The notes under the pieces were generated by a model, which ran no database searches, was not told where the DNA came from, and saw only the letters and a list, made by a program, of their open reading frames with translations. Position numbers and translations under genes: made by a program. Below are positions 1 to 52,557 of a stretch of DNA of 64,000 nt, piece after piece; position 1 is the stretch's first letter, and every line of letters starts with the position of its first letter. The DNA lies in the NCBI RefSeq assembly GCF_036345915.1, contig NZ_CP107785.1, positions 5,766,001 to 5,830,000 on the forward strand. The letters run 5' to 3'. Source of the stretch: Nocardia sp. NBC_00565. Its GTDB lineage: Bacteria; Actinomycetota; Actinomycetes; Mycobacteriales; Mycobacteriaceae.

Positions 1-3000
1 ACGCGGCACGCACACCGACGAACGCCGGACCGTACTCGAGCCCGGCGAGCTTCGCAATCCGCTCCGGAAGCCCCGCGCTGTCCACGACCTCGGTATCGAC
101 GGGCGGCCATTCCTCCTCGCGCAGCCGCGACAACAACGCCGAATCGCCATCCCACTCGGCCCCGAACGCACCGGTGGCGTTGTGGATCCATTCGGCATCT
201 GAGGACTTGCGGAAATAGAACTCGAACGGACGCCGCCCGGACTCGTCCGCCGCCTGCACCAATACCTGCAACTCGACCTCGTCGTCGGCGGTCGGCAGAA
301 TCGGCGCTTGCAAGGTGAGCTCCTCGACCACCCCGCAACCGATCCGACGGCCCGCGACGAGAAGGAACTCGATGAACGTCGCGCTCGGCACAACCACCAC
401 GCCATGGGTCATGTGATCGGCGATCCACGGATGAGTCCGCAACGAGAACCGGCCGGTCAACAACCATTCGTCGGTACCCGCCAACCCGACCACGCCCGTC
501 AGGATCGGATGATCCGTCGACGGCGAAGCGTCCACGGCGCCCGACAACCAGAAACGGCGATGCTGGAAGGCATAGGTAGGCAACGGAACCCGACGCGCCT
601 CACGACCCGCGAACCACGAACGCCAGTCCACCCGCGCACCCGCGACATGAACCTGCGCCAAGGAAGTTACGAACTGCTCCACCTCATCGACCGACCGCCG
701 CGAAGTGGCCGCCACCGACGACACCGACTCGACTTCCGGGTTCTCGGCCAGACATTGGCGAGTCATCGCGGCCAGCACCGCATCCGGTCCGATCTCCACG
801 AACCGCCGCACACCAGCCTCGACCAGGACATCGATCCCCGGCGCGAACCGGACGGACCCTCGCACCTGCTCGACCCAGTACTCGGGATCGGTCAGCTCGG
901 CAGCGACCACGACCGCCGAAACATTCGACACGATCGGCAACGATGGCTGCCGATACGTCAATCCTGCTGCGACAGACCGGAACTCGGCCAACATCGGATC
1001 CATCCGCGCCGAATGAAAGGCATGGCTGACCCGCAACCGGTTCGTCTTCACACCCTCGGCGGACAGCAGCCGCTCGATCTCACCGATCACATCGACGTCC
1101 CCGGACAACACCGTCGACGACGGACCGTTCACCGCCGCGATCGACACACGGTCGGCGAAATCGGCGACGATATCGACAACTCGTCCTGCACCGATCGCCA
1201 CCGCGAGCATCGCGCCGCCCACCGGCAATGCGCCCATCAACCGGCCCCGGGCCGCCACCAGCGCACACGCATCCTCGAGCGACCACACCCCGGCCACATA
1301 CGCCGCCGCCAACTCACCGATCGAATGCCCGATCAGCAGATCCGGTGTCACACCGAATGACTCGATCAACCGGAACAACGCCACCTCGAACGCGAACAAG
1401 GCCGGTTGGGTGAATTCGGTCCGATCCAACACACCCTCGGCGTCGGCGAACATCAGCTCCTTCAAGGACAGCGCGGAGCTCCTCGAGGGGTGGTGGTCAG
1501 GCGACGGGTGGACCCGGCCCAACAACGGATCGAACTCCGCACACACCTCGTCCAACGCGGCCGCGAACACCGGGAACGCCCGATACAGGCCCGCACCCAT
1601 ACCAACCCGCTGCGCACCCTGACCCGTGAACAGGAACGCCGTCCTGTCAGAACCCGCCGTCCCCTCGATCGTGCCGTGCGAACCGGCGGCCACATCAGCC
1701 AGACCGGCCAGCAGTTCGTCCCGGTCACGCCCCACGACCGCACCGCGCCGGTCCAACTGCGCCCGCGACGTCGCCGAGGAATACGCGATATCCCACACAT
1801 CTACGTCGGGATCGTCGATCAACCACTGTCGCAGTCGATCCGCCTGGACACGGAGGGCTGCGTCGGACTTGGCCGATATCAACAACGCAACGATATCGGC
1901 CACCACGGTTTTCGCGGCCGGTGCCTGCTCGGCCCCGTCTGCGGACGTCACGATGACCGGATGGGCGGGCGCTTCCTCGAGTATCAGGTGGGCGTTGGTA
2001 CCGCTGGCTCCGAACGACGACACCCCGGCTCGCCGGACCCGGTCCCCCACCGGCCACGACTCACTGTCCTGCAGTAGCCGCACCGTGCCCGCGGACCAAT
2101 CCACATGCGGGGTGGGCGAATCCACGTGCAACGTCTTCGGCAGCACGCCGTACCGCATGGCCTGCACCATCTTGATCACGCCGCCGACCCCCGCCGCAGC
2201 CGAGGTGTGACCGATATTCGACTTCAACGACCCCAAACGCAACGGCACGCTCTCGCGCCGCGCGCCATACGCGCTGATCAGTGCCCGCGCCTCGATCGGA
2301 TCCCCGAGCGTCGTGCCGGTGCCGTGCGCCTCTACCGCGTCGATCTCCGACGGGTCCAGCCCGGCGTTCGCCAACGCGGCCGCGATTACGCGTTCCTGCG
2401 ACAGACCATTCGGCGCGGTCAAGCCGTTGCTCGCACCATCCTGGTTGACAGCACTGCCACGCACCACCGCCAGCACGGTGTGACCGAGCCGCTGTGCGTC
2501 CGACAACCGCTCCAACACCAACACTCCGAGCCCCTCGGAGAAACCGGTCCCGTCGGCAGCCGCCGCGAAAGCCTTACAACGCGCATCGGGCGACAACGCA
2601 CGCTGACGCGCGAACGCGATCAGCAAAGACGGATCCGACATCACGGTCACCCCACCCGCCAACGCCAGCGACGTATCGCCCTGCCGCAGTGCCTGGCACG
2701 CCAGATGCAACGCCACCAGCGACGACGAACAGGCGGTATCGACCGATATGGCCGGGCCTTTGAAACCGAACGTGTACGCGATCCGACCGGACAGCACAGC
2801 GTTCGAAACACCCAGGTAGGCATGGCCTTCGGTCTCGGCGGTGATATTCGGCGAGCCGATGCGGGGACCATAGTTCTGGTGGATGACTCCGGCGAAGACG
2901 CCGGTGTCGCTGCCGCGCAACGCCATCGGGTCGATACCCGCGTCCTCCAACGCTTCCCAGGACGCCTCCAACATCAGGCGCTGCTGCGGATCCATCGCCG

Positions 3001-3352
3001 CGGCCTCACGCGGGCCGATCCCGAAGAAAGCCGCGTCGAACTCACCTACGGAGTCGAGGAACCCACCGTCACGGGTGTAAATGCTGCCCGGCACATCCGG
3101 ATCCGGGTTGAACAGCCGTGCCAGGTCCCACTCTCGATCGGTCGGGTAATCCCCGATGGCATCTACACCGTCCGCCGTCATGCGCCACAAATCCTCGGGG
3201 GACCGCACACCCCCGGGATACCGGCAAGCCATACCGACGATCGCGATCGGTTCCCGCGACCGGTCGGTGAGCACACGTAGTTGTTGTTTGGTCTCGTAGA
3301 GCTCCTTCGCGGTCTTCTTCAGATACCGGCGTAGCTCGTCGTTGTCGGCCAT
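1..3352 (-). CDS. Type I modular polyketide synthase, partial (N-terminal 1,117 residues)
   Basis: This is the extension module that receives the chain from the PKS encoded upstream (3405-18296). The reading frame is open to the left edge, so the C-terminus is missing. It starts with a charged docking helix ([13 protein letters not shown]) typical of class 1 PKS docking. A ketosynthase follows with catalytic Cys208 in VDTACSSS. The acyltransferase has Ser677 in GHSIGE and a later HAFH motif, the pattern of malonyl-CoA selectivity. The dehydratase has His980 in a HxxxG motif and is cut by the window edge. The AT contains a 16-residue insertion (HPSPDHHPS) caused by a dispersed DNA element. The ATG at 3350-3352 has a GGAG about 10 nt upstream, and 52 bp separate it from the preceding PKS, so the two are probably co-transcribed. 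Any ER, KR and ACP domains, and the module count, lie outside the window. Confidence 0.95.
1469..1514 (+). repeat. Dispersed hairpin element, copy A, inside PKS acyltransferase
   Basis: The element core GGTGGTCAGGCGACGGGTG lies antisense to the PKS frame, which reads HPSPDHHPS. The host AT has about 16 extra residues here compared with module-1 AT of the neighbouring protein, where FDPVLE runs straight into CSLKE. This copy sits inside a tract identical to the one around copy B, so A and B probably share one insertion followed by duplication or conversion. Confidence 0.75.
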
Positions 3353-3404
3353 CGGTGGAACTCCAGATCGTGTGTGCTCAGCTGAGGTGGTCGCGGAACG
3401 TGCT

Positions 3405-6400
3405 TCAACTGATTTGGTCGATGAATTCGAAAAGCTCGCGGTCGTCCGCGGTTTCGAGACTGTCGGGGTCGCCGCCCAAGTCGATTTCGCCGATGTCCTT
3501 GCCTTCGAGCTCACGCAACAGTGCGGTCAAACTGCTTGCGATAGCCGACCGGTCCACAGCCGACAGCTCGGCCGTGGCACAACTGCGCGCCAGCGACTCG
3601 ATCTCGGTCGCGATACGTTGCGCGGGGTCGTCGACCGGAACGATCTCCTGCCGGATGAAACCGGCCAGCGCCTCCGGGGTGGGATAGTCGAACATCGCGG
3701 TTGCGGACAACTGCACGCCCACGGCCGATTTCAGCCGGTTGCGGAATTCCATCACGCCGAGCGAGTCGAACCCGATATCGCTGAACGGCTTGTCCGGAGG
3801 GGTCGAGTCCGCGCTGGTGTGTCCCAGAACGACCGCGGCCTGGGTGCGGATCACGTCGAGGATGAGACGTTCTTGTTCGGCTGTCGGGCGGCCGAGCAGT
3901 TGCGCCACCAAAGACGCGGAGCCCGCGGAGTGCCCATTCGACGCTGTCGGCGGCGCACTCGTCGTAGCCGCCCGGCGGTGCGAGGGCCGCGACAAGCCCT
4001 CCCGTCGCCCACCACCACCCTCAACGGTGGCGCTGCGCGCCGCAGATACATCCCGCATAACCGCGCGCAGATCCTCGGGAGCCGCCTCGCCGAGCGCGGT
4101 CCGGTCGATCCGGACCGCCACGAACGCCGACCGGCCGCCCGCCAGCGCGGCGTCGAACAGCCCCATGCCGTCCTCGTCGCCCAACGGAAGGAGACCTTCG
4201 CGCCGCAAACGGGCGATATCGGCCTCGCCGAGCGCGCTGGTCATACCGCCGCTCTGCTCCCATGGCCCCCATATCACCGACGTCGCGGGCAGACCGGTGA
4301 CGTGCCGGTGTTGTGCCAACGCATCGAGGAAGACATTGGCGGCCGCATAGTTCGCCTGGCCCGGATTGCCGATCACGCCCGCGATCGAGGAGTACAGCAC
4401 GAACGCCGACAGATCCAGGTCCTTGGTCGCCTCGTGCAGATTCCAGGCCGCATCGACCTTGGGCCGCAGCACCGTCGCGATCTGCTCCGGCGTCATGGTG
4501 GCGAGCAGACCGTCGGCCAGCACACCCGCCGCATGCACGACACCGGTCAACCGATGCTGCGACGGTATTGCCGCCAACACCGCGTCCAGTGCGGCTCGAT
4601 CAGCCGCGTCACACGCGACCACGTCCACATGCGCACCGAGCGCGGTCAGCTCGGCGGCGAGTTCGGTCGCGCCGGGCGCTTCCGGACCACGCCTACCTGC
4701 CAACACCAGCCTGCGCACACCATGCGCGGTGATCAGGTGTCGCGCGGCCACAGCGCCCAATCCTCCGGTGCCGCCGGTGATGAGAACAGTGCCCTCGGGC
4801 CGCAACGGCACCGGCACGGTGAGCACATTCTTGCCGATATGCCGGGCCTGGCTCAGGTACCGGTAGGCGTCCGGCGTCTGCCGCAGGTCCCACGCGATGG
4901 TCGGGTACGGCGCCAGAGTCCCGGCCTCGAAAAGCTCGACCAGCGCGGTCAGAATCTCGTGCAGCCGATCCGGACCCGCCTCCATCAGCATGAAACTGTG
5001 GTAATCCACGCCCGGATGCTCGGCGGCGACCTCGACCGGATCACGCCGGTCGATCATGCCCATCTCGACGAACCGACCACCGCGCGGCAGCAGACGCAAG
5101 GACGCATCCACGAATTCGCCTGCCAGCGAATCCAATACGATGTCCACACCGCGACCGCCGGTGGCGTCGAGGAATTTCTGCTCGAAATCCAGTGTGCGCG
5201 AGTTTCCGATATCGGAGTCGTCGAACCCCAAATCGCGCAACACATTCCACTTGGGCTCACTGGCGGTGACCAACAACCGCAGGCCCAGGTGTCGCGCGAG
5301 TTGCACGGCCGCCAGGCCAACGCCACCGGTCGCCGCATGCAGTAGCAGCGTCTCACCGGGCCGCGCATCGGCCAGGTCGACAAGGCCGTAGTAGGCGGTC
5401 GCGTAGACGATGGGAATCGCCGCGGCCTGGGCGAAGGACCAGCCGCGCGGGATCGGCGCAAGCAGTCGGCGATCGACCACCGCCACCGATCCGACACCCG
5501 GGATCAACCCGAAAACCCGGTCACCGGGCGCGAATTCGGTCACATCCGGTGCGACCTGCACCACGACCCCGGCTCCCTCACCACCGATTCGCTCCGCCTT
5601 GTCGGGGTAGGTACCGAGTGCCATCAGCACATCTCGGAAGTTGAGGCCGACCGACCGCATACTCACCCGGACCTGGCCTGGTGCAAGCGGTTCCAACGCA
5701 CTCGGATGGTCGCTCAGACCGAAGTTGTCCGCGGTCAACGTGCCCTTGTCACGCAGAGTCAGCGCCCATGCCGAGGCGTCTCGCGACGCGACTTCGAGCG
5801 GGTTCGCACCACCGCGATTCAGGCGCGGCGCATGCGCCTTTCCGCGCCGCACGGCCAGCTGGGGTTCGTCGCCCGAAGCCAGGGCCACGGCGGTCCGATA
5901 ATCCGCCCAGTCCTCGACATCGACGAGCAGAATCCGGTCCGGGTTCTCACTCTGTGCCGTACGCAGCAGACCCCACACCGCTGCCGTGGGCAGGTCGACC
6001 GACTCGTGTGGATGTACCGCGACCGCGTGCCGGGTCACCACGACGATGCGCCGGTCCTGTGTCAGCAGCCGCTGCACCCGCACCGCGAGTTCGGTGACCC
6101 GATCCCGTACCGCCGCAGGGAGATCGCCGTCGACGGCCGTGGCGTCGAGCCGCAACACCGTCGCGTCCCGTCCCGCGATCGTCACGGTTTCACCGTCACC
6201 GTCACCGTCACCGTCATCGGCGAGGCTCCAGGTGTCGACCGCGATGAGCTCACCCGCGGGCTCGGGTAGCACGACCCAATTCACCTCGTAGCCAACGCCT
6301 TCGGTTCGACGGTGCGCCGAGCCGAGCGCATCGGCCGACAACATCCGCAGCGTCAGTGCCCCCACTTCGGCCACCGCCACGCCCGCCGGGTCGGCGAGGG

Positions 6401-9400
6401 CTACAGTTATCCGCTCACCCCCCGGCCCGGAGCCGGTCACGGCGGCACGCACCCGCACGGTGGTCGCGCCCGTCGCATACAGGGCGATGTTCTCCCAGGA
6501 GAACGGGACGGCGATCGCACCGGCCCGGGTGTCCGGAGCCAGCCCACCGAGCAGGATCGCGTGTAGTGCGGCATCCAACAATGCCGGATGCACACCGTAT
6601 TTCGCGCCGTCGGATCGTGCGGACTCCGGCAGGACGACCTCCGCGAACACCTCACCGTCGCGCCGCCACAGGGCGGTCAGTCCGCGGAACGCCGGTCCGT
6701 ACTCATAGCCGCGCTCGGCCAGATCCGCGTAGGCGTGATCGATCGCTATCGCCGTCGCACCCGCGGGCGGCCAGCTCACCAGATCGGAGTCGACCGAGAG
6801 CGTGTCCGACCCGGCGGTGACCGTCGCGACCGCGTGGCGAACCCACTGGTCCGCATCGTCGTCGCGCGAGTCCGAATCACCATCGTTGGACCGCGAGTAC
6901 ACCGACACTGTCCGCGCACCGGTGTCATCCGGTCCGCCCGCTACCACCCGCAACTCGACGGCCCCGGTGGCCGGTATCGGCAGGGGTGCCTCGATCACCA
7001 ACTCCGCCAGTCGCGGGCATTCCACCACCGTTCCCACGTGCAGGGCCAGCTCCACGAGGGCGGCGCCGGGCAGCAATGTCACCCCGGTGACGGCATGATC
7101 GGCCAGCCACGGATGACCGGCTCGTGACAGCCTCCCGGTGAACACCACGTCCTGGGAATCCGGCAACCGCACCATCGCACCCAACAGCGGGTGCCCCGCA
7201 TCGTCCAGTCCCGACTGCCACAGGTCCGGTGCGTCGACCGGCTGCGCCCAGTAGCGTCGATGCTGGAAGGCGTAGGTGGGCAACGTAATCCGATTCGTGG
7301 GACGGCCCCCATACAGCGGCGTCCAGTCAACCCCTACGCCGACGACAGCGGCCTGTGCCAGCGCGGACACGAACTGGGTCGGCTCGTCGATCGAGCGCCG
7401 GGCGGCCGCGACCACCGTTGACTTGGCCTCGGCGGCCGGAGTCTCGACAAGGCATTGCCGAGTCATCGCGGCCAGCACCGCATCCGGTCCGATCTCCACG
7501 AACCGCCGCACACCAGCCTCGACCAGAACGTCGATCCCCGACGCGAACCGGACGCACCCCCGCACCTGCTCGACCCAGTACTCGGGATCGGTCAGCTCGG
7601 CAGCGACCACGACCGCCGAAACATTCGACACGATCGGCAACGACGGCTCCCGATACGTCAATCCTTCGGCGACAGACCGGAACTCGTCGAGCATCGGCTC
7701 CATCAGCACCGAGTGGAACGCGTGGCTGACCCGTAGCCGGGAGGTCTTCACTCCCTCCCCGACAAGCCCGTCACTGATCTCGTCTATCGCGGACACTTCC
7801 CCGGACAGCACCACCGATGATGGGCCGTTCACCGCTGCCAACGACACCCGACCGCCGTACTCGGCCAGCACCTCCTCCGCCTCGGCCTCCGACACCGCGA
7901 TCGCGAGCATTGCCCCGCCCGCCGGCAAGGCACCCATCAACCGACCGCGCGCCACAACCAGCGCACACGCATCCTCGAGCGACCACACCCCGGCCACATA
8001 CGCCGCCGCCAACTCACCGATCGAATGCCCGATCAGCAGATCCGGTGTCACACCGAATGACTCGATCAACCGGAACAACGCCACCTCGAACGCGAACAAG
8101 GCCGGTTGGGTGAATTCGGTCCGATCCAACACACCCTCGGCGTCGGCGAACATCAGCTCCTTCAAGGACAGCGCGGAGCTCCTCGAGGGGTGGTGGTCAG
8201 GCGACGGGTGGACCCGGCCCAACAACGGATCGACCTGTGCGCACACCTCGTCGATCGCAGCCGCGAACACCGGGAACGCCTCGTACAGCCCCGCGCCCAT
8301 TCCCGCCCGCTGCGCACCCTGACCCGTGAACAGGAACGCCGTCTTCCCCGAACCCGCCGTCCCCTCGATCGTGCCCGGCGAATCCGCCGCCACATCGGCC
8401 AGACCCGCCAGCAGCTCATCTCGATCCCGACCTACGACGACCGCCCGACGGTCCAGCAATGCCCGGGAGTCCACCAATGACCGTGCCACCGACCAGATCT
8501 CGACCTCCGGACGATCGGCCAACCACGCCCGCAACCGCTCGGCCTGAGCCCGCAGGCCCTCCTCCGATTTGGCCGACACCGTCCACGGCACAGCAATATC
8601 GATTCCGCCCGAATCGTGCTCGGGCACCGATGCCGCCTGGGCCGGAGCCTCCTCGATGATCACGTGCGCGTTGGTGCCACTGATCCCGAATGACGACACC
8701 CCGGCCCGGCGCACCCGGTCACCGGCCGACCACGCCTGCGCCTCGGTCAACACCTGGACCGACCCCGCCGACCAATCCACATGCGGCGATAACGCATCCA
8801 CGTGCAATGTCTTCGGCAGCGTCTCGTGCCGCAGGGCCTGCACCATCTTGATCACACCGCCGACACCCGCCGCCGCCTGGCTGTGACCGATATTCGACTT
8901 GAGCGAACCAAGACGCAACGGATCGCCCGCACGATCCTGCCCGTAGGTGGCGATCAACGCCTGCGCCTCGATCGGGTCGCCCAAAGCCGTTCCCGTACCG
9001 TGCGCCTCGACCACATCCACATCCCGTGGACGCAATCCGGCATTCGCCAGCGCCGCCGCGACCACCCGCTCCTGCGACGGACCGTTCGGCGCCGTCAAAC
9101 CATTGCTCGCACCGTCCTGATTGATCGCACTGCCACGCACCACCGCCAACACGTTGTGGCCCAGACGACGCGCATCCGACAGACGCTCCACCACCAGCAC
9201 CGCGGCGCCCTCGGACCAGGCGACACCGTCGGCCGCGGCCGAAAACGACTTGCACCGACCGTCGCGCGCCAAACCACGCTGCCGCGAGAACTCCTGGAAC
9301 ACCATCGGCGTCGACATCACCGTCGCGCCACCGACCAACGCAAACGAACTCTCCCCCTGGCGCAGCGCCTGGCAGGCCAGGTGCAGCGCCACCAGCGACG

Positions 9401-12400
9401 ACGAGCAGGCGGTATCCACCGTCATCGCCGGGCCTTCCAGACCCAGCGCATAGGCCACCCGTCCGGAAGCCACACTCCCCAGACCACCGGTGAGGACATA
9501 CCCCTCGACCTCGGGCCCGGCCTTGCCGGTCACCGCCTCGTAGTCCTGGTACATCACGCCCGTGTAGACGCCGGTGTCGGTGCCGCGCAACGACGTCGGG
9601 TCGATCCCCGCATGCTCGAGCGCTTCCCAGGACACCTCCAGCAGCAACCGCTGCTGCGGATCCATCGCCGAGGCCTCACGCGGACCGATCCCGAAAAAGC
9701 CCGGATCGAAATCACCTGCGTCATAAAGGAATCCACCGCGCCGGGCATAGACCGTCCCCGGCTTGTCCGGATCCGGGTCGAACATCCGCTCCAGATCCCA
9801 GCCACGATCCGACGGGAACTCACCGGTCGCATCTCTTCCGGAAGCAACCAGATCCCATAGCGCGTCCGGCGATTCCACGCCGCCGGGGAACCGGCAGGCC
9901 ATGCCAACGATCGCGATGGGTTCGTCCACGCGTGTACGGCGCGGCACCCGTGCGGTCCTGGAATCGGACGCTGTTCCCTCGATCCTGGAGTGCAGGAGGG
10001 TAGCGACCGCCGCGGCGGTGGGGTGGTCGAAGACCAGGGTGGACGGTAGCTGGACACCGGTGGCCTTCGACAACCGGTTGCGGAATTCGACGCCGCCGAG
10101 CGAGTCGAATCCCAGTGCGTCGAATCGGTCGGCCGGGTTGACGTCTTCGGCGCAACCGTGCCCCAGCACGGCCGCCGCGTGCTCCCGGACCAGGTCGAGC
10201 ACCACCGCGGCGCGTTGGGCCTGCGGTACCCGGCTCAGTCGGGTGCCCAGCGAACTCGACGCGGCCGCGGTCCGGTCCGGGGTGCGGGGCAGAAAACCGC
10301 GCAGCACCGCCGGTGCCGCACCGTCGTGCGCTTCGCGCCGCAGTTGCGCCGGGTCGAACCGAATCACTGCCAGGTGCGCGGCGGCGCGGCCGGTGGCCGC
10401 ATCGAACAGCCGCAGACCTTCGTCGTTCTCGAGCGAGTAGAGACCGAGCCTTTCCCAGCGAGCGACGGCGCTGCGGTCCAAGCCGCCGGCCATACCGCTT
10501 GCGGAATTCCAGGGCCCCCAGCCCAGTGCTATCGCGGACAGCCCTTCAACTCGGCGACGGTGCGCCAGCGCGTCGAGGAATGCGTTGGCTGCCGCGTAGT
10601 TGCCCTGTCCCGCCGATCCGATCGTTGCCGCGACAGACGAGAACAGCACGAAGGCCGACAGGTCACGGTCGCGAGTGAGTTCATGCAGGTGCCATGCGGC
10701 TGCGGCCTTCGAGTCGAACACTCGCCGCAGTTGCTCGGCGGTCAGGCCCGCGAGGGTGCCGTCGTCAAGGACACCCGCCGCATGGACCACACCGGTCAGC
10801 GGATGATCGGCTGCTATCGAATCGAGCAGAGAACCGACGGCATCTCGATCGCCCACATCGCAGGCCGCCACCCGGACAGCCGCACCGGCTTCGGACAGCT
10901 CGGACATCAATTCCATTGCACCGTCGGCGGTTTCGCCCCGCCTGGACACCAGCAGCAGATGGCGGACTCCGTGCGCGGCGACCAGATGTCGAGCCACCAG
11001 TGCGCCGAGGCCACCGGTGCCACCGGTGATCAGGACAGTACCGGTACCGAACAACAGCGTCGCGGAGCGACTCGATGAGGGGTGGTGGTCGGGCGACGGG
11101 TGGGCCGGCTTCGGCTCGGCCTCGCGCTCCGCTCGTGCTCTCGCCAGTCGGGGTACGAGCACCGCTCCGGCGCGCACCGCGGCCTGTGGTTCGCCCGCCG
11201 CGATCACCGCACCGACCAGCGTCGGATCATCCATGGGCGCAACGGCCGACGGATCGGTGTCGACGAGAACGAACCGGCCCGGATATTCGGATTGGGCGCT
11301 GCGTATCAGGCCCCAGACGGCCGCCGCGGCGAGATCCGGTGCCTCACCCGGCAGCGCGGCACCGTTCGCGGTCACCACGACCAGCCGAGTGTCGGCCAGA
11401 CGATCCTCGGCCAGCCAAGCCTGCACCGTCGCCAGCACCATTTCCAAGTGGCCGCGAACGGCCGCCGGATCGCCGGACGCAGCGCTGTCCTCCGGATGCC
11501 AGCTCACGAAATCTGGAATCTCTTGTGCCGCAGCGAGTTCTGATGGGCTCGAACCGAGTACGGCGATCCGGTCCGCGGATACGCTCGGTGCCGCTACCGC
11601 CGCGGGCGTCCACTGGACCTCGTAGAGGTCGGCGGCATCCCCGGCCAGTGTGCCGCGCATCTGTTTCACGTCATAGGGCCGCATGACGACCGCGTCGACG
11701 GAGACCACGGGCCGTCCCGAATCGTCAATGGCCGCTATGGAAATCGTCTCCGGTCCGCGCGCCACCGCAATGACCCGCAGCGTCGTCGCCCGGACCAGCG
11801 GCTGGTGTAGCCGCGCTCCGCCCCAGCGGAACAGCAACCGGCCGGTGTCCGGATCGCTGTCCTGATCGCGCCAGAGGAGCCCGGCCAGCCCGGCGTGCAG
11901 CACCAGGTCGAGCAGAGCCGGATGCAGATCGAACCGCTCCGGCTCGGGCGCGGCCGCCGTATCCAGGGTGATCTCGGAGAAGACGGTCTCGCCCCGCCGC
12001 CATGCGGCGTCGACACCGATCAACGCCGGGCCGTATTCGAGTCCGGATCCTTCGGCGATCCGCTCGGGAATCCATGATGGGTCGAGAGTTTCGGCGTCGA
12101 TCGGCGGCCAGGCCTCGTCCCGCAGCTGGTCCAGCAGCGCGTCATCGCCGTCCCACGAAGGGGCCAGTACACCGCTGGCGTTGCGCACCCATTCGCCCGC
12201 TCGGCGACCCGCCTGACGGAAGTAGAAGCTGAACTGCCGTCGCCCGGTCCGGTCCGGCTCCTGCACCGACACCTGGAGTTCGACCTCGTCGTCTTCCGAC
12301 GGCGGTATCGGAGCCTCCAGGGTCAGTTCCTCGACGACGCCGCAACCTATTCCGCTGCCCGCGACGAGTAGGAATTCGACGAGGGCGGCGCTCGGCAGAA

Positions 12401-15400
12401 CCACAGTGCCGTAGGTCATATGGTCGGCGACCCACGGGTCGGTCGGCAGCGAGAACCGGCCGGTGAAAACGAACTCGTCCTTACCGGCCACCGGCACCAC
12501 ACCGGTGAGCAACGGGTGGGCAAGGGCGTCGCCGGTGGCTTCGGGACGCGGCGGCAACCAGAAGCGCTGGTGTCGGAAGGCGTACGTGGGCAAGGGAACT
12601 CGTCGAATCGCCCGGCGACGCAACAGTGGCAGCCAATCCACCCGCACACCGGATGTGTGAGCGTGCGCCAACATCGTCGAGAACTGTTGGGGCTCATCGT
12701 GATCCCGGCGTGCGGCCGCGGCGACAACCGTCGCCGACTCCGCGTCCTCCGGAAGGGTCTGCCGGGTCATCGCCGCCAGCACCGCGTCGGGCCCCACTTC
12801 CAGGAACCGGCGCACACCCGAGGCGATCAACGTCTCGATCCCCGGCGCGAATCGCACCGCGGCCCGCACTTGCCGAACCCAGTAAGCAGGTTCGGTCACT
12901 TCGTCCCCGGCAAGCTGACCGGACACATTCGACACCACCGGCAGGCGTAGCCGGTGGTACGTCAACTCCTGTGCCACAGACTCGAATTCGGCCAGCATCG
13001 GCTCCATCCGATGCGAGTGGAAGGCATGGCTGACCCGCAGCCGCGACGTCTTCGCGCCACGCTCGGCGAATCGGGCCTCGATCTCGACGACCGCGTCCTC
13101 GTCACCCGAGATCACCAGAGCCGCCGGCGCGTTCACCGCGGCAACCGACACTCGGCCGGGATACCGGGCGACAACATCATTCACTTCGGTTTCGGACGCT
13201 CCGATGGCCAGCATCGCTCCGCCCTCGGGCAGCGCACCCATGAGACGGCCGCGCGCCGCCACCAACCGGCACGCGTCCGCGAGCGACCACAGGCCCGCGA
13301 TGTACGCGGCGGCGACTTCTCCGATCGAATGGCCGATCAACACATTCGGGGTGACGCCGAACGACTCCAGCAAGCGATACATCGCCACCTCGAAGGCAAA
13401 CAACGCGGGCTGGGTGAACTCCGTCCGATCCAGCACCGTGACACCGGTACCACCAGCGACGACGCCGTTGAACATGATCTCTTTGAGCGAGCACTCCAGC
13501 ACCGGATCGAACTGGGCGCACACCGAATCCAACGCGTCCGCGAATACCGGGAACGCCGCGTACAAGCCGGCGCCCATACCGATCCGCTGTGCACCCTGAC
13601 CGGTGAACAAGAATGCCGTCTGCCCCGAACCGACGACACCTCCGATGACACCGGTGCCGGTCCCCGATTCGGCAAGGCTCGCCAACCGCTCGAGCAACTC
13701 ATCGCGATCGCGACCGAGTACCACGCTCCGCGAATCCAGCTGCGCCCGCGACGTCGCCAGCGCATAGGCCGCATCCGCGACGTCGATCTCCGGCCGCTCC
13801 GACAACCATGCACGCAGCCGGGCGGCCTGCGCACGCAGACCTGCCTCGCCCTTACCCGACACCAGCAATGGGGTGACCGGCACGGTGATCTCGGTGTCTT
13901 CCTCGGCAGCCGTCACCGGTGCGGCAGGTGCTTCTTCGAGGATCACATGCGCGTTGGTGCCGCTGATCCCGAACGACGACACACCCGCCCGACGCACCCG
14001 ATCTCCTGCGATCCACGGTTCGGCTTCGGTCAGCAAACGCACCGCGCCCGCGGCCCAATCCACGTGCGGCGACGGCGTCTCGACGTGCAGCGTCCGCGGC
14101 AACCGCTCGTGCCGCATCGCCTGCACCATCTTGATCACACCGGCCACACCGGCGGCGGCCACGGTATGGCCGATATTCGACTTCAAGGAACCGATCCGCA
14201 ACGGCTCCCGATCGCCGCGATCCTGTCCGTAGGCAGCGATCAACGCCTGTGCTTCGATCGGATCACCCAGAGTCGTGCCGGTCCCGTGCGCCTCCACAGC
14301 GTCCACATCGACCGCCGAGATCCCCGCATTGGCGAGGGCCTGCGCAATCATCCGCTCCTGCGACGGACCGTTCGGTGCGGTCAGACCATTGCTCGCGCCG
14401 TCTTGGTTCACCGCACTTCCGCGAATAACGGCCAGGATGTTGTGGCCGAGCCGCTGTGCATCCGAAAGTCGTTCCAGCACAAGAACACCCGAGCCCTCCG
14501 ACCACGCCACACCGTCGGCGGCGGCCGAGAACGCCTTGCAGCGACCATCCGGTGACAGGCCGCGCTGGCGGGCGAAGTCCACGTACAGATACGGGCTGGC
14601 CGCAACGGTCACACCACCGGCGAGAACCAGCGAGCTGTCGCCCTGACGCAGCGCCTGGCACGCCAGGTGTAACGCCACCAGCGACGACGAGCACGCCGTA
14701 TCCACCGTCACCGCCGGACCTTCCAGACCGAACACGTACGCGACACGGCCCGAAATGACGCTGTGCGACGTGCCGGTCAGCCGGAAACCCTCCAGGTCAC
14801 CGGTCACCCGTCGCGAGTAGCCCGACGAGCAGGCACCAGCGAATACGCCGGTATCGCTGCCCCGCAACGACATCGGGTCGATACCCGCGTCCTCCAGGGC
14901 TTCCCATGATGTCTCGAGCAGTAGCCGCTGCTGCGGATCCATCGCCAACGCTTCGCGAGGGCTGATGCCGAAGAAGCCGGGGTCGAAATCGCCTGCACCG
15001 CTGAGGAATCCACCGTGGCGCGTGTAGACCGTTCCCGGTTTATCGGGATCCGGGTCGAATAGCCGGTCCAGGTCCCAACCGCGGTCGGTGGGGAATTCGC
15101 CGATCACGTCCCGGCCCGCAATCATCAGGTCCCACAGGTCCTCGGCGGACCGCACACCACCAGGGAATCGGGCACCCATGCCAACGATCGCGATCGGTTC
15201 GTCCGACATCGGGGATGGTCGGCCGGCGGAGCCGGCGGGGCGGGTTAGCTCAGCGCGCCGCGCTACCCGGTGCTTGCCTCGGTCGGTTCCGGTGACCCGT
15301 GCTCGCAGCAGTGTCACAACCGCATTCGCGGTCGGATGGTCGAAGATGAGCGTCTTCGGCAGCGGCACACCGGTGGCCCGTGTCAGTCGGTTCTGCAGCT

Positions 15401-18296
15401 CCACCCCACTCACGGAGTCGAGGCCGAGCTCGGTGAACGGCAGGTCGGGCTGAATTGACTGGGCCGACCCGTGGCCTAGTACGGCAGCAGCATGCTCACC
15501 GACGATATCGAGAACTACTGTGTCGCGCTGATATTCGGGGGTCGCCAGCAATTTGCGTGCCAGCGGGCCGTCGTCCCACGCTCCGGTCTGCTCCCTGCCC
15601 TCGGAAATTCGACCCTCGGAACTTTGCTCCTCGGTTGCCGCAACGACGTCGGTGACACCGGTGAAGCCACCGGAAGTGACCGGCATACCGGCCCAGAAGT
15701 TACGGCGCTGGAACGCGTATGGCGGCAGGTCTACCCGCGCCCCACCGGAGACCAACGCGCGCGGATCCACCTGCACACCGGCGCAGTAAGCCTGTGCCAG
15801 CGACGCCATGAACCGTTCCGGGCCGCCCGCACCGCGCCGCAACGATCCGACAACAGATACGCCCTCGGCTGCACCGGCCGCCTCGGCGGTCAGGCCGATA
15901 CCCATCGTGAGCACCGGATGCGGACTTGCCTCGATGAATCCGGTGATACCGTCCCCGATCAGCGCCGTAACAGCATCGGCGAATCGAATCGGTTCCCGCT
16001 CCGACCGGTACCAATATTCGGCGTCCAGTTCCGCCGTATCCAACCGGTCGGCGAATACCGTGGAAAAGAACGGCACCGACCCGGATTGTGGGCGGATCGG
16101 CTCCAGTTCCTCGAGCAGCCGATCGCGGATCCGCTCGATCGCCTTCGAATGCGACGCGTAATCTATCGGAACCCGGCGGGCCCACACACCGTCGTGGGCG
16201 CAGTCGGCGAGGAAGTCCGCCATCGCCGAAACGTCACCGGATATCACACTTTGCGCCGGTCCATTCACCGCCGCCAATGACAGCCGATCCCCATACGCCG
16301 AAAGACGTTCCCGGACCGCATCCGCGCCGAGTCCGATCGAGACCATACCGCCGTGTCCGGCCAGCTCATCGGCGATCGCCCGGGACCGGAGAGCCACCAC
16401 ACGCGCCGCATCGGACAGCGACAGTCCACCGGCAACGTAGGCGGCGGCGATCTCGCCATGCGAATGGCCGATCACCACGTCCGGCTCCACGCCGGCCGCT
16501 CGCCACATCCGAGCCAGTGAGACCATCACCGCGAACAGCGCCGGCTGCACCACATCCACGCGGTCCAGCGAGGGCGCGTCGCCTTCGCGACGCAGTACGG
16601 CCGTCAGCGACCAGTCCACGTACGGCGCAAGCGCCGCTTCACATTCGGCGATCGATGCCGCGAACGCCCCACCCGCAGCCAGCAGTCCGAGCGCCATACC
16701 CTCCCACTGGCTGCCATTCCCCGGGAAGACGAACGCGATCCGCCGCTGCTCGGCCCGCCCGGTTGTCGGCTCGATGGCCGCCGCAGGCGCGGTCGGGTCG
16801 GCCAGGGCTGCCAAACCGGCCAGCAGCTCGTCGCGATCCCGCCCGACAACGCTTCCGCGCCAATCCATTTGGGCTCGCGTGCGCAGCAGCGAATGCGCCA
16901 CATCGACCACATCCAGCTCCGGATGGCGCAGTAGCCATTCCCGCAGCCGGGCCGCTTGCGCACCGACGCCGCTCTCGCTGCGGGCCGACACCACCCACGG
17001 CACCGCACCGGCCGCGCCGTCCACCGTGGACGCGGCGGACCCGACGGCGGGCGCCTCTTCCACGATCACGTGGGCATTCGATCCGCCCATGCCGAACGAC
17101 GACACAGCTGCCCTGCGCACGGTGGCCAAGGGCCAGTTCTCGGTGCCCGTCACCACCCGTAAACCCAAGTCCTGGAGTGGAATTCGCGGATTCGGTGTCT
17201 CGAAGTCGAGACTGGCCACCAGTTCTCGGTGGGTCAGACAGAGCACGGTCTTGATCAGGCCCGCGATACCGGAAGCACCTTCCAGATGCCCGATATTCGT
17301 CTTGACCGATCCTACGGCCAGCGGCGCATCCTGCGCCCGGCTCATTCCGTAGGTCTCGCCGAGCGCGGCGGCCTCCACCGGATCACCGGCGGGTGTTCCG
17401 GTGCCGTGCAATTCGACGTACTGCACCGACGGCGCCTCGACACCTGCCGCGGCCAGAGCCGAGCGGATCGCCGCCGCCTGCGCATCCCGACTCGGGGCGC
17501 TCAGCACTCGGCGTTCGTTGCCGGTGTTGACCGCACTGCCACGGATCACCGCATGAATCCGGTCGCCGTCGGCGACCGCCTGCGCCAGTGGTTTCAGCAC
17601 CACCATGGCGCCACCCTCGCCGCGCACGAACTCGTCGGCCCGCGCATCGAATGCGTAGCACCCGCCAAGCGCCGACTGCGCGCCGAACTGCTCGATCCGC
17701 GCACCGCTCGTCGGCGACAGAATCAGGTTCAGCCCGCCGACCAGGGCCATGTCGCTCTCGCCGCTGCGCAGGCTCGCACATGCCAGATGAACCGCGACCA
17801 GCGAGGATGCCTGGGCGCTGTCGACCAGGATGCTCGGGCCGCTGAAACCGAAGTAGTTCGAGATGCGGTTTGCGATGATGCCGCGTTCGACACCGCATAG
17901 CGAGTGGCGGCTGACCCCCGGGCCGCCCTGGGAGGCCACGATTCCGGCGAAATCGCTGCCGGTGCAGCCGAGGAACACACCACACCGCCGGGCATCGCGT
18001 GTCGTTGCGGCCAGGCCCGCGTCCTCGAACGCCTCCCAGCTCAACTCCAATGCCAGCAGCTGCTGCGGATCGATTGCCCGCGCCTCATCAGGCGAGACCC
18101 CGAAGAAGTCCGCGTCGAACTCCCCTGCGGTATCAACGAATCCGGCCCGCTCGGTGATGCTCCCCCGTCCGGGCGGAGCTGCGCCGATCGCGGCGCGCCC
18201 CGCCCTGAGCAGCTGCCAGAAACTGTCGAGATCGGCCGCGCCCGGCATTCTGCAGGACATGCCAACGATAGCGACGTCAAACGCCGATCCGCTCAC
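3405..18296 (-). CDS. Type I modular polyketide synthase: KSQ loading module plus two extension modules
   Basis: This 4,963-residue synthase begins polyketide assembly. The loading module has a ketosynthase-like domain with the active Cys replaced by Gln162 (VDSAQASS), an AT with Ser612 (GHSHGE) and a YASH motif typical of methylmalonyl selectivity, and an ACP (Ser961). Module 1 has KS (Cys1202), malonyl-type AT (Ser1657, HAFH), DH (His1959), KR (NADPH motif near 2425, Tyr2567, B-type LDD) and ACP (Ser2732). Module 2 has KS (Cys2964), malonyl-type AT (Ser3425), DH (His3734), ER (GGVGLAA near 4325), KR (near 4500, Tyr4650, LAD instead of LDD) and ACP (Ser4845). The acidic/helical tail resembles a C-terminal docking domain. 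The inferred route is decarboxylated methylmalonyl giving propionyl, then pent-2-enoyl, then hept-4-enoyl. The GTG start overlaps the upstream ORF stop (GTGA) and is preceded by GGAAGG at good spacing. The gene is unbroken over 14.9 kb. Confidence 0.96.
3997..4043 (-). repeat. Dispersed hairpin element, degenerate copy C, in KR-ACP linker of module 2
   Basis: On the plus strand CTCCCGTCGCCCACCACCAC is followed by a GC-rich tail ending GCGCGCCGC. Aligned with the other copies it keeps the GGTGGTGG and GCGACGGG blocks but has lost the perfect first hairpin. It runs in the opposite orientation to copies A, B and D and reads [13 protein letters not shown] in the protein. It falls in a flexible inter-domain linker, where insertion would be tolerated. 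It is weaker than the others. Confidence 0.5.
8169..8214 (+). repeat. Dispersed hairpin element, copy B, inside PKS module-2 acyltransferase
   Basis: Identical to copy A at exactly +6,700 bp, antisense to the PKS. In the protein it produces the extra [13 protein letters not shown] segment between FDPLL-type and SLKEL-type residues of AT2 (near residue 3370). AT1 of the same polypeptide lacks this segment, which shows that it is an insertion and not a family feature. Confidence 0.75.
11057..11105 (+). repeat. Dispersed hairpin element, copy D, in module-1 DH-KR linker
   Basis: The plus strand shows GTCGCGGAGCGAC, a perfect 5-bp stem with loop GGA. After a short spacer comes GGGGTGGTGGTCGGGCGACG, which contains the second small hairpin (GTCG-GG-CGAC). 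It is translated antisense as [13 protein letters not shown] just before the KR NADPH-binding motif. Compared with the ABC-gene copies the first stem has changed from ATCGC/GCGAT to GTCGC/GCGAC, a compensatory pair. Confidence 0.75.
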
Positions 18297-19986: not shown

Positions 19987-20060
19987 TAGCGGGGACAGGA
20001 TTTGAACCTGCGACCTCTGGGTTATGAGCCCAGCGAGCTACCGAGCTGCTCCACCCCGCG
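19987..20060 (-). tRNA. tRNA-fMet (initiator, anticodon CAT)
   Basis: The minus strand reads CGCGGGGTGGAGCAGCTCGG at the 5' end, with anticodon arm CTGGGCTCATAACCCAG and a 3' acceptor CCCCGCT plus discriminator A. The unpaired first position (C1 opposite U72) and the three G-C pairs next to the anticodon loop are hallmarks of initiator tRNA. CCA is not encoded (CAA follows). Length is 74 nt. A terminator and the recombinase remnant lie on its 3' side, so its 3' half is a candidate attachment site. The following stretch, 20061-20352, holds no gene that I recognise. Confidence 0.95.
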
Positions 20061-34422: not shown

Positions 34423-34424
34423 GG

Positions 34425-35731: not shown

Positions 35732-35778
35732 GGTTCGAGACTATCGCGCCGCCGCGAACACCAGTCGTCGCGGCAGTG

Positions 35779-45456: not shown

Positions 45457-45541
45457 GCCACGCGGCGCTCCGCAGTCGACGCACTCATCGGTGAGCTCGA
45501 ACACACGCCTCGGTCTGCGTTCGAATTCGATATACGTCAAT

Positions 45542-46327: not shown

Positions 46328-46332
46328 GTCCG

Positions 46333-46629: not shown

Positions 46630-46668
46630 ACGGCCCCGCCGCCGTCGATCGGCGGCTAACGTAGAGCT

Positions 46669-47418: not shown

Positions 47419-47576
47419 CGGTTGCGACGGTCCGTGGGTCGCTCGAAGCCGCCACCCTCCCGGGATCTGCGCCGCCGTCGAATTAGCATGTCCACCATGC
47501 TCGCCCCGTCGCTCAACCGCCACACCGCATCGCATCGCATCGCGATACTGCGGCCCATCGTGCCTGGCGCCTGCCG

Positions 47577-49373: not shown

Positions 49374-49461
49374 AGAATTGGAATTCTTCTTCCTCTGGTG
49401 ATGTCCGCTCGCTACTGTGTGATGGTTAGGCGAATACAAAATCACCTTCGGAAAGGACCGA

Positions 49462-49644
49462 GTGGAGATGGCTGAAAAGTCGAAGAAAACGCCTAAGAAA
49501 GCACCCAGGCAGATGGATCGCCAGCAGCAACAGCAGCGCCAGGATCAGAGCCGAGCAGGCGGTGAGGAGCGCCAGCGGATGGCGAACGACCCGCAGCGCC
49601 AGGAGCGGCGAGACCCTGACCAGCGCCGAATGGGTCACAACTGA
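49462..49644 (+). CDS. Small basic, Gln/Arg/Lys-rich protein, unknown function
   Basis: A 60-residue, very hydrophilic protein (VEMAEKSKKTPKKAPRQMDR, then glutamine and arginine runs) without hydrophobic core, domain or cysteine. It is probably disordered and nucleic-acid binding by charge. Good Shine-Dalgarno GAAAGG, 6 nt before GTG 49462, and a strong terminator right after the stop support that it is a real gene. A start at ATG 49468 is possible. Confidence 0.65.
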   Translation: MEMAEKSKKTPKKAPRQMDRQQQQQRQDQSRAGGEERQRMANDPQRQERRDPDQRRMGHN

Positions 49645-49650
49645 TCTGAA

Positions 49651-49686
49651 ACGGGCCGCCGGTTCCCCCAAGGGCCGGCGGCCCGG
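49651..49686 (+). terminator. Terminator after the small basic protein gene
   Basis: CGGGCCGCCGG pairs with CCGGCGGCCCG across a 12-nt loop, 8 bp after the stop codon. The remaining intergenic DNA to 49912 has no recognisable gene. Confidence 0.7.
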
Positions 49687-49912
49687 TTGTGCGTTCGACT
49701 CCCCGCTTCACCCCGCTCATCGCCGACATTATTTACGGCAATGCGTTTGGACCAATAACGCAGGACGCGTCCCTTTTTCAACGCGCTGCGCGGTTCGAAT
49801 TGGGCCCGCCACCACCCGGCGAGTTGCCTTTTCTCGGGGCAAATACGAAATGGCTTTGCAGGCCGCCATCGAGGTGGCAGCAGTGTTTCCCGCGGCCACT
49901 GCGAGGTGCGGG

Positions 49913-51640
49913 TCAGGCCCCGATGCGGGCCAGTTCCGGGGAGGTCGCCGTGTGGGCGGCGCGGCGGGCTACGGCTGGGTCGGGGGTGGGCACTGCGTCG
50001 AGCAGGCGGCGGGTGTATTCCGCTCGGGGCGCGGCGAATACCTCGGTCACGGGGCCGGTTTCGACGACGGCACCTGCACGTAGGACCACGACGCGGTCGG
50101 CGATCTGGTGGATCACCGCGAGGTCGTGACTGATGAACAGGCAGGCGAAGCCGTACTCGGCGCGCAGGTCGGCGAACAGGTCGAGGACCTGGGCCTGGAC
50201 CGAAACGTCGAGGGCACTGGTCGGTTCGTCGGCGACGAGCAGGCGTGGGGCCAGCGCGAGTGCGCGCGCCAACGCCACCCGCTGACGTTGGCCACCGGAG
50301 AGTTCGCCCGGACGGCGGGCAGCGTAATCGCGTGGTAGACGGACGGATTCGAGCAGATCACCCACCTTGGTGCGCAGCAGCGCTCCGGAGGCGACACGGT
50401 GCACCTGCAGCGGTTCGCCGATGGCGTCCTCGATGCTGCGGCGCGGATCGAGCGAGGCCGTGACGTCCTGATGCACCAGGGCGACGTTCTTGCGCAGAGC
50501 GCGCAACTCCCTGGCCGGTAGACCGGTCAGCGAAACCCCTTGCAGCTCAACCTGTCCCGCATGGGCGGCCACGAGACCGAGCGCACTGCGCCCGAGAGTG
50601 CTCTTGCCGGAACCGGATTCGCCGACCAAACCGATCACTTCGCGCAGCGCGACCGTCAGCGACACATCACGCAGCGCGCGAAAGGCTCGCCTGCCACCAC
50701 GACCGCGATAGACGACGCTCAGATCGCTGACTCGCAGCACCGGCTGAGATTCCGTGGGAGCAGTGCGGGCAGTGGAATCCTCGTCGTCCCCGATCGGCCG
50801 CGTGGCCGCCGGTAGGCGCGGGACGGCGTTGAGTAGAGACCTCGTGTAGTCCTCGCGGGGATCGGCGAACAAGCCGTGTACCGGCTGTTGTTCGACGAGC
50901 TTGCCCGCGCGCATCACCACCACTCGGTCGGCGATTTCGGCGACGACGCCGAGGTTGTGGGTGATGAAAAGGATTGCGGTGTCGCGGGTTTGCTGGAGGG
51001 TGCGCAGTAGATCCAGGATCTCGGCCTGGACTGTCACGTCCAGGGCGGTGGTCGGCTCGTCGGCGATCAGCACGTCTGGTTCGCCGGATAGGGCCAGTGC
51101 GATGACCACGCGCTGTTTTTGACCGCCGGAGAGCTGGTGGGGGTACCAGTCGACGCGCCGGTCGGGCTCCGGGATGTCCACCATGGCGAGTAGTTCCACG
51201 GCGCGGGCGCGGGCCGCGGCCTTCGAGATGGGACCGTGCGCGCGCAGGGCCTGGATGAGCTGGGTGCCGACCTTCTGCACCGGATTCAGCGCGGTCTGCG
51301 GCTCCTGGAACACCACGGCGGCGCGGGTCCCGCGCAGGCCGCGCAGTCGCGACTCGGGCGCATCGACTACTTCGGTATCCGCGAGCCGGATCGACCCGGC
51401 TGCGCTCGCGCCCTCGGGCAGCAGTCCGAGCACCGCGCGGGCCGTGATCGACTTGCCCGAACCGGATTCGCCGACGAGCGCCACGACCTCGCCGCGGCGC
51501 ACCTGGAAGCTGACACCGTCGACGACGGTGCGAGTGCCGAAGCGCACCACCAGATCCCGGATATCCACCAGCGTGTCGGTACGCGCTCCCGTCGCCCGAC
51601 CGCCACCCCGCATGGAATCGCTACGCGATGCTTCGTTCAT
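49913..51640 (-). CDS. ABC importer ATPase, two fused nucleotide-binding domains (DppD-DppF type)
   Basis: A 575-residue protein with two complete ATPase domains for a peptide/nickel/opine-type importer. Domain 1 has VALVGESGSGKS (near 52-63), QLSGGQKQRV and VLIADEPTTALD. Domain 2 has VIGLVGESGSGKS (near 336), ELSGGQRQRV and LLVADEPTSALD. The N-terminus ([14 protein letters not shown]) is not part of the ATPase fold and is encoded by a dispersed hairpin element. Its start ATG overlaps the stop of the upstream permease (ATGA). It is the last gene of a four-gene operon. Confidence 0.93.
   Translation of the reverse strand: MNEASRSDSMRGGGRATGARTDTLVDIRDLVVRFGTRTVVDGVSFQVRRGEVVALVGESGSGKSITARAVLGLLPEGASAAGSIRLADTEVVDAPESRLRGLRGTRAAVVFQEPQTALNPVQKVGTQLIQALRAHGPISKAAARARAVELLAMVDIPEPDRRVDWYPHQLSGGQKQRVVIALALSGEPDVLIADEPTTALDVTVQAEILDLLRTLQQTRDTAILFITHNLGVVAEIADRVVVMRAGKLVEQQPVHGLFADPREDYTRSLLNAVPRLPAATRPIGDDEDSTARTAPTESQPVLRVSDLSVVYRGRGGRRAFRALRDVSLTVALREVIGLVGESGSGKSTLGRSALGLVAAHAGQVELQGVSLTGLPARELRALRKNVALVHQDVTASLDPRRSIEDAIGEPLQVHRVASGALLRTKVGDLLESVRLPRDYAARRPGELSGGQRQRVALARALALAPRLLVADEPTSALDVSVQAQVLDLFADLRAEYGFACLFISHDLAVIHQIADRVVVLRAGAVVETGPVTEVFAAPRAEYTRRLLDAVPTPDPAVARRAAHTATSPELARIGA
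51586..51631 (-). repeat. Dispersed hairpin element, copy E, N-terminus of the ABC ATPase gene
   Basis: Minus strand: ATCGC-GTA-GCGAT hairpin, then GGGGTGGCGGTCGGGCGACG with the GTCG-GG-CGAC hairpin. It starts nine bases after the start codon and adds about 15 residues before the true domain (DTLVDIRDLVV). Confidence 0.75.
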
Positions 51641-52557
51641 CCGATCCTCCTGGCCCGGCCCAACGCCTGGGCGATCAATAGGAAGCCGAGTGTCAACCCC
51701 GCCACGACGACGAGCGGACCGATCGCGAACGCGGCATTGACATCGAGATTCGAGATCGATTCGGAGATGATCGATCCCAGCGACGGGTCCGGCGGACGCA
51801 CGCCGATGCCGATGAAACTCATGGCGCCCTCGACGAAAACCGCCACCGACATCGACAGTGCCAGCTGCACCGACAGCGGCTCGATAACGTTGGGCAGCAC
51901 GTGTTTACGCACTATCCACCAGGTGCCCGCGCCGATCACCTCGGCGGCCTCGACATAGGGCTGTTCGCGAACCTGTAGGATCGCCGTGCGAATCTGCCTG
52001 CCGAACACCGGAATCTCCGCAGCGACGATCACCACGATCACCGCATGAATGCCCGGTCCGGTGATCGCGGCCAGCGCGATGGCGAAGATGAGCGCGGGAA
52101 ATGCCAGTATGACATCGAAGACCCGCTGCGCCACCACATCCGCGACCGGATTGACGCTCGCGAGCAGCCCCGCGAACGCACCGGCCAGCGCACCGAGTGG
52201 TACGGCGACGAAGACGATGATCAGGTCGATCCGAATTCCGTACAGCACGCGCGCGAACACATCCCGATTCAAGTGATCGGTGCCGAGCCAGTGATCCCCG
52301 TTGGGTCCCAACAGGTTCGCGCCCGGGATCTGGGCGATCGGATCGTAGTGGGACAGCGCACCGGCGAAGATTCCGGCGAGCGCGATGATCACCACCAAAC
52401 TCAGCCCGAACAGCCCTTGCCCGCTGCGCAATGCCGATCGCAGCGTGCCAGCGACACGATCGGTTGTCCGCGTGGCACTTTCGACAGCAGCGATATCGGG
52501 CCCACCCGTCACCCGGCCACCACCTCCCATCGAATCGTTGCGCGATGCCAACCCCAT
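51637..52557 (-). CDS. ABC importer permease (DppC type)
   Basis: A 306-residue inner-membrane permease with about six hydrophobic segments and the cytoplasmic EAA loop (EAAEVIGAGTWWIVRKHVLP near 200). DHLNRDVFARVLYGIRIDL is typical of DppC/OppC. The first 19 residues (SRNDSMGGGGRVTG) come from a dispersed hairpin element and are not permease-like. The start overlaps the stop of the upstream permease by one base (TAATG). Its partner is the permease at 52557-53513. Confidence 0.92.
   Translation of the reverse strand: MGLASRNDSMGGGGRVTGGPDIAAVESATRTTDRVAGTLRSALRSGQGLFGLSLVVIIALAGIFAGALSHYDPIAQIPGANLLGPNGDHWLGTDHLNRDVFARVLYGIRIDLIIVFVAVPLGALAGAFAGLLASVNPVADVVAQRVFDVILAFPALIFAIALAAITGPGIHAVIVVIVAAEIPVFGRQIRTAILQVREQPYVEAAEVIGAGTWWIVRKHVLPNVIEPLSVQLALSMSVAVFVEGAMSFIGIGVRPPDPSLGSIISESISNLDVNAAFAIGPLVVVAGLTLGFLLIAQALGRARRIG
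52501..52548 (-). repeat. Dispersed hairpin element, copy F, N-terminus of the DppC-type permease gene
   Basis: Same element as copy E, beginning nine bases after the ATG. It agrees with copy D in about 85 percent of 47 positions by eye, including the flanking GGGCCCACCCGT end. It encodes SRNDSMGGGGRVTG. Confidence 0.75.

Follow-up and report, generated by a model that had tools for sequence, protein, structure and literature searches.

The 64-kb window studied here (G000:C1:5766001-5830000), taken from the 9.71-Mb single contig of the Nocardia sp. NBC_00565 genome (G000), carries copies of a short hairpin repeat that recurs elsewhere in that genome. Very probably this repeat is a non-autonomous mobile DNA element akin to the repetitive extragenic palindromic (REP) sequences, and its Nocardia branch inserts at start codons that lie in a DTGA tetranucleotide (D is A, G or T). 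Apparently, many unrelated proteins of housekeeping and of secondary metabolism in one genome have naturally gained a similar N-terminal tag by insertion; related species keep empty alleles and eroded tags.

A dispersed repeat behind start codons

A covariance model built from 31 copies was run over the whole G000 genome, where it gave 96 matches at E ≤ 1, of which 93 at E ≤ 1e-3; this and later counts include some of the copies used in building, the E-values are rough, and since 150 candidates were scored the figure of 93 may be a lower bound. A 22-nt core (≤2 mismatches) occurred 47 times, against 0 for its reversed-pattern control. The original prediction had described a hairpin element inserted in frame in unrelated proteins; the genome holds many more copies of it, beyond chance. 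The full repeat unit measures 51 or 54 nt (17-18 codons), and shorter decayed copies exist.

DTGA stands exactly 7 nt before column 1 of the model at 47 of the 96 matches, and 4 nt before it at 5 more (52/96). Its density is 931 sites per 64 kb on both strands, so that less than 1% would be expected at any one offset and the peak at -7/-4 is not due to chance. In 49 of these 52 cases the frame that starts at the NTG of DTGA crosses the element and stays open for at least 100 codons beyond it; the match at 768420 (TTGA), one of the 52, is probably not a start. Read in this frame the element encodes M(N/S) followed by 17 residues, with variants, an addition of 17-18 residues that leaves the frame unbroken, and the open frame predicts that this N-terminal tag is translated. 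The original prediction had counted 14-16 residues for each insert; its in-frame additions in both orientations stand, at a length of 17-18 codons, and the two ATP-binding cassette (ABC) transporter copies are N-terminal and not internal.

A Pfam scan of 30 tagged proteins assigned a family to 27, and the best stretch listed never started before residue 20. The hosts are unrelated to each other and include the carbamoyl-phosphate synthase small chain, ornithine/aspartate carbamoyltransferase, homoserine dehydrogenase, FolB and isocitrate/isopropylmalate dehydrogenase, together with P450s, ABC ATPases and permeases, response regulators, major facilitator superfamily transporters, allantoicase and others. 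Internal copies, most of them antisense in the two megasynthase classes that follow, were also found: ten are antisense in non-ribosomal peptide synthetase (NRPS) genes at one shared site, just before what we take to be the LTYxEF motif, four lie in polyketide synthase (PKS) genes and a few elsewhere. Other reading frames are used at few sites, for example 8010697 and 7826941. At 768420, 6787765 and 425282 (G000:C1), which have similar flanks, an element-like sequence seems to be read in another frame (SIAERFDEGRWPGDGRARIMY, read by eye) and is possibly an older domesticated copy.

Comparison of orthologous genes, which the original prediction had proposed as a check, revealed that the inserts are not conserved across orthologues of carA, hom, PKS and folB. 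carA was matched in 150 of 150 genomes, and among the best 30 loci, which were aligned, nine carry the element (G000, G117, G162, G009, G053, G057, G077, G112 and G094) and 19 are empty. The carA genes of G081 and G085 (loci L213 and L218) have a different GC-rich N-terminal extension at the same place, which is not the element. For hom, 30 loci of 150 were aligned: seven are filled (that of G054 decayed), 21 are empty and two (G053 and G047) hold another sequence. Sister species are polymorphic at this gene, G162 and G000 being filled and G117 and G009 empty. At carA the empty allele of G045 reads ATGA/TGCAAGAAGCAGCAGC and the filled allele of G117 reads ATGA/54 nt/CACAAGAAGCAGCAGC; at hom the corresponding alleles are CATGA/CGGACGCAGCG in G117 (empty) and ATGA/54 nt/CGGATGCAGCG in G000 (filled). 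In both genes the bases after ATGA in the empty alleles come after ...GGGC in the filled ones, and the 3' junction is exact. A target duplication was looked for at these empty and filled alleles of carA and hom, and none was seen.

Gain and decay are also visible at two further loci. For the PKS copy at window position 11055-11105, 12 loci of the 145 genomes with a match were aligned; a full, near-full or tandem copy is present in four (G000, G009, where it is 3 nt short, G143, and G053, which has three units), remnants were seen in G045, G084 and G083, none in G117, G162 and G113, and another sequence in G079 and G158. Among the 120 folB homologues listed of 3391, seven begin with the tag by a simple pattern and others start untagged (e.g. 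MSTDRIELRGL); several more seem, judged by eye, to hold in-frame remnants of the tag, and some entries begin at the inner Met.

Structure, tandem arrays and distribution

The element is built of a hairpin with a 5-bp stem, a brief spacer and a constant block rich in G (GGGGTGGYGGYCGGGYGACGGGYGGGC). Its consensus is CAGCATCGCGNAGCGATTCGATGAGGGGTGGTGGTCGGGCGACGGGTGGGC, and RYD often stands between ATGA and this sequence. Among 29 distinct G000 copies, helix 1 (5 bp) shows 98.6% pairing, including the switch from ATCGC/GCGAT to GTCGC/GCGAC (A-T to G-C) that had been read as a compensatory change. When 44 copies from Nocardia and other genera were selected for similarity to the 3' block, pairing of this helix reached 99.1%; both partners had changed in 50 cells, and slid controls gave far lower values. 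The stems seen are ATCGC/GCGAT, GTCGC/GCGAC, GGCGC/GCGCC, CCCGC/GCGGG and AATGC/GCATT, around a loop of 3 or 4 bases. The second of the two hairpins originally proposed is weak: because 15 of the 44 copies are mispaired at one pair, helix 2 is not established. A stop codon is typically found in one of the six reading frames of the element. The stem and, largely, the inner TG are retained also in copies between genes, and the use of the inner NTG (columns 21-23) as an alternative start was accordingly rejected as the reason for its conservation, although this NTG may serve as a start. The 3' G-rich block has putative G-quadruplex potential.

Tandem arrays at start codons follow the same geometry. 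In seven of eight, units repeat every 54 nt if DTGA is at -7 and every 51 nt if it is at -4, the exception being the array at 137158 (DTGA at -7, spacing 51); this match between spacing and DTGA distance agrees with a unit that runs from just behind DTGA to GGGTGGGC. At G000:C1:8979662-8980017 seven tandem 51-nt units stand behind GTGA, and most of the 116 aa in the frame that opens there are encoded by the element. Differences between orthologous copies fall largely at columns that are polymorphic in the family. Between G117 and G162, for instance, the flank has 9/599 differences and the element 4/51, each of these 4 separating alleles that are frequent in the family; as the flanks are coding and constrained, this is only suggestive of gene conversion between copies.

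Among Nocardia the 22-nt core (≤2 mismatches) was found in 68 of 118 genomes, with 0 to 47 copies per genome and at least 5 in 30 of them; since the reversed-pattern control gave one or two matches in 22 of the 118, single core matches mean little. An exact pattern (34 of 34 stretches from Nocardia) had suggested a Nocardia-only distribution, which was rejected by model searches run with strict filters. Model search R1 matched 24 of 249 genomes of the order, 19 of them outside Nocardia (14-24 copies in seven, one to five in the others), and R2 matched 38 of 394 genomes of the class: 4 Nocardia, G175, 6 of family f31 and 27 of one genus (g85). No genome of the same family and another genus was matched in the R1 or R2 draws. 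Relatives across the class have rewritten stems that still pair, and outside Nocardia 24 of 35 copies (order) and 8 of 15 (class) lie between predicted genes, as counted with a crude open reading frame (ORF) caller and omitting loci below the block threshold. As far as seen, the start-codon habit is a Nocardia feature. The element matched no Rfam family in the window (gathering threshold) or in five loci (E ≤ 0.5), no IMG/VR phage by exact pattern and no PLSDB plasmid at E ≤ 1e-3.

At L250, L258, L249 and L272, from Nocardia and another family, copies lie inside large ORFs at a second recurrent internal site, close to a YRTGD-like motif. At L329 (G488), in a class-level genome, a copy is followed by an apparent further repeat unit with the prefix GCAAGGTGCGC.

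Proposed insertion mechanism and competing explanations

We propose that a trans-acting enzyme would read the hairpin shape together with the G-rich block and join the element behind DTGA. The bias towards start codons would then stem from the DTGA target plus selection for harmless sites, the outcome would be a 17-18-residue N-terminal tag able to decay in frame, and tandem duplication would add 51- or 54-nt units. A bolder version holds that the insertion machinery itself seeks translation starts, a non-Y1 enzyme joining a class-wide element behind DTGA, perhaps on single-stranded DNA or message, in a natural genome-wide N-terminal tagging; we offer it tentatively and rather doubt it.

Several observations weigh against insertion behind DTGA by such an enzyme. 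In the G000 clade, ATGA of the filled carA and hom alleles lies 3 nt closer to the upstream gene than it does in most empty alleles; the net gain at these genes is therefore 51 nt, and the left side of the insertion may have been partly rebuilt. carA has exceptions to this spacing, G043 being empty with the short spacer and G057, G077, G112 and G094 being filled with the usual one, and at the ABC ATPase gene of the window the empty G011 allele has an identical sequence as far as ATGA, beyond which the 3' flank has diverged too much to fix the end exactly; on account of these spacers and of the identical G011 sequence, ATGA is taken as the presumed native start, though at some sites it may come with the element. 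A crude N-terminal coding-frame criterion was passed by 58 of 83 sites (after the merging of 13 tandem units, with three NRPS tandem units kept separate), but random ATGA and DTGA sites of the window pass it at 25% and 31%, and the result is therefore support and not proof. Lastly, no mobilising gene was found by Y1_Tnp searches or by scans of proteins near copies, and no detached left half marking an autonomous element was found in the G000 genome.

A Y1 (HUH) enzyme would suit insertion without duplication behind a tetranucleotide. A RAYT/IS200 partner was rejected, as the presence of Y1_Tnp (PF01797) across 249 genomes of the order does not follow the element: the domain occurs in 35 of them with no co-occurrence; among the 7 copy-rich genomes outside Nocardia only 2 have it, and Nocardia G018 and G073 lack it. 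G000 has five Y1_Tnp matches; one strong element match lies ~0.8 kb from a Y1 fragment, the other matches in the five loci are weak, and no repeat ends were found beside the best Y1 gene. A scan of 10 proteins encoded close to copies, from four non-Nocardia regions (L309-L312), found no transposase. An autonomous parent element was also considered and rejected: the left half alone (≤2 mismatches) gave 74 matches, 71 of them inside model matches and the others at 2738581, 6886903 and 7414918, with no detached-end family.

Copies could instead have been inserted at random, without target preference, selection leaving those at start codons and in linkers. The N-terminus is a tolerant place and internal NRPS/PKS copies exist; the fixed -7/-4 distance to DTGA, however, is unexpected from selection alone, and the G000 copies outside both starts and ORFs look few when set against the order-level relatives between genes. 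We consider random insertion improbable.

A functional N-terminal tag or post-transcriptional regulon, in which the leader or peptide is useful (expression control, targeting) and copies are kept for their benefit, would agree with most start copies standing at the start codon in one frame and with stems conserved as paired. It would also agree with an excess of synonymous change: among the single-change codons of 47 N-terminal copies, 99 of 200 are synonymous against an expected fraction of ~0.29, which could reflect selection on the tag peptide and is a further point against a purely mobile repeat. As much of the signal comes from a small number of family-wide columns and several third positions are invariant, this excess combines DNA constraint and subfamily history with possible peptide constraint. 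On the other hand, the host genes have no common theme in the 30 scanned, element-free orthologues of carA, hom, folB and PKS exist, the sites in other reading frames do not fit, intergenic copies keep the stem and largely the inner TG too, and in-frame folB tags have eroded. Benefit as the reason for the copies is, in our judgement, distinctly improbable.

A spread chiefly through homologous recombination or gene conversion among copies and through module shuffling, in place of transposition, could account for the one site shared by the NRPS copies, for the identical window copies at 1469 and 8169 and for the polymorphic columns of G117 and G162, but it leaves unexplained the copies behind start codons of unrelated genes with unrelated flanks and the exact empty sites in the unrelated genes carA and hom, so that it is at most a secondary process and very hard to credit as the main one.

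A mobile repeat inserting behind DTGA, the reading we prefer, has parallels elsewhere. According to PMC12548453, mycobacterial interspersed repetitive units (MIRU) are short, apparently mobile repeats that insert at start codons with likely minimal impact on the gene and contain an ORF of their own, coupled at -4 spacing to the gene that follows; MIRUs of 53 and 77 bp are named in PMC4213456. Start-codon insertion is found here too, in the DTGA-linked open frames and empty sites given above. By these descriptions the Nocardia element differs in having no stop and being fused to the downstream gene, where MIRU has its own coupled ORF, and in its 51-54 nt. DTGA wording is reportedly used for MIRU insertion as well, and was not found in our literature search. 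That search, limited to open-licence papers, yielded no published description of the present repeat family; the original prediction, which knew of none in actinobacteria, is to that extent upheld, whereas a start-codon repeat as such is known in mycobacteria (MIRU, PMC12548453).

The repeat had originally been likened to Rickettsia palindromic elements, which in the passages of PMC2229807 and PMC10969869 are palindromic repeats of 105-150 bp that join unrelated proteins in frame; in R. conorii close to half of them lie in ORFs. The likeness holds in that a palindromic repeat here enters the frames of many unrelated proteins without breaking them. The Nocardia element differs in its 51-54 nt and 5-bp stem, the Rickettsia elements having another structure, a long stem-loop, and no start-codon rule in those passages, and because its commonest site is a start codon, the target rule fits MIRU better.

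REP sequences of the GTAG/CGTC superfamilies are described in PMC3733652 as short hairpins with variable stems (8-9 bp for the CGTC families) and with one end tagged by GTAG or CGTC, dispersed and grouped, mostly intergenic, with some in ORFs and some N-terminal; where a REP coincides with an annotated N-terminus, it may lie outside the gene if the true start is further downstream. The text consulted does not mention Nocardia, Actinobacteria, Mycobacterium or Pseudonocardia. A structure-conserved short hairpin in many dispersed copies is common to both. Unlike GTAG REPs, the Nocardia element has no conserved GTAG at either end (alignments A1 and A2) and showed no Y1/RAYT association, and unlike the extragenic REP case its empty alleles place the start codon upstream of the insert, from which translation of the tag is predicted.

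The Nocardia repeat joins two known oddities, the start-codon insertion of MIRU and the in-frame protein palindromes of Rickettsia, and its class-wide, structure-conserved family is a place to look for the missing mobilising enzyme. Annotation is affected, since some N-termini in these genomes are element-derived.

Copies and neighbouring features in the window

The model matched seven copies in the window (Table 1). Six correspond to the tracts originally reported, all found where they had been placed, give or take a few bases, two being truncated and one divergent; the seventh had been overlooked. A mismatch scan with a 25-nt core recovered five tracts within 3 mismatches and the seventh copy (47499) at 6, and did not recover the 3997 tract within 7, the level at which six Markov shuffles produced five matches in all; the divergent copy there is the least certain of the six.

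Table 1 Copies of the repeat in the 64-kb window, with the presumed target of one of them (window coordinates)
Feature	Position	Strand	Details
Full 51-nt copy	11055-11105	+	80.9 bits; antisense inside PKS ORF 3405-18296 (-); reads 17 residues
ABC ATPase copy	51583-51633 (54-nt insert to 51636)	-	70.7 bits; tags ORF 49916-51640
ATGA, presumed target	51637-51640	-	start codon of ABC ATPase gene
ABC permease copy	52500-52550	-	65.5 bits; 7 nt behind start codon (ATGG), ORF 51640-52557
Truncated 45-nt copy, hairpin 1 destroyed	1469-1513	+	47.2 bits; antisense, PKS acyltransferase region
Truncated 45-nt copy, hairpin 1 destroyed	8169-8213	+	47.2 bits
Divergent copy, stem GGCGC/GCGCC	3996-4045	-	44.0 bits, E 2.5e-7; sense, 3' part of PKS ORF
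Seventh copy, diverged	47499-47550	-	42.9 bits, E 4.7e-7; just behind ATGG

The 54 nt at 51583-51636 (-) separate ATGA from the native ABC ATPase gene (Pfam ABC_tran) and would give it a 19-residue N-terminal tag. The tag of the ABC permease is MGLASRNDSMGGGGRVTGGP, and its G011 orthologue has CATGAGCG without the element. The two truncated copies are identical in sequence and have near-identical flanks, and that at 8169-8213 was probably duplicated together with its PKS domain. Inside the PKS ORF, positions 8898-8969 (+) match the Rfam family ASpks (RF01782, antisense sRNA) above gathering, and a tRNA gene at 19987-20060 (-) adjoins the PKS cluster.

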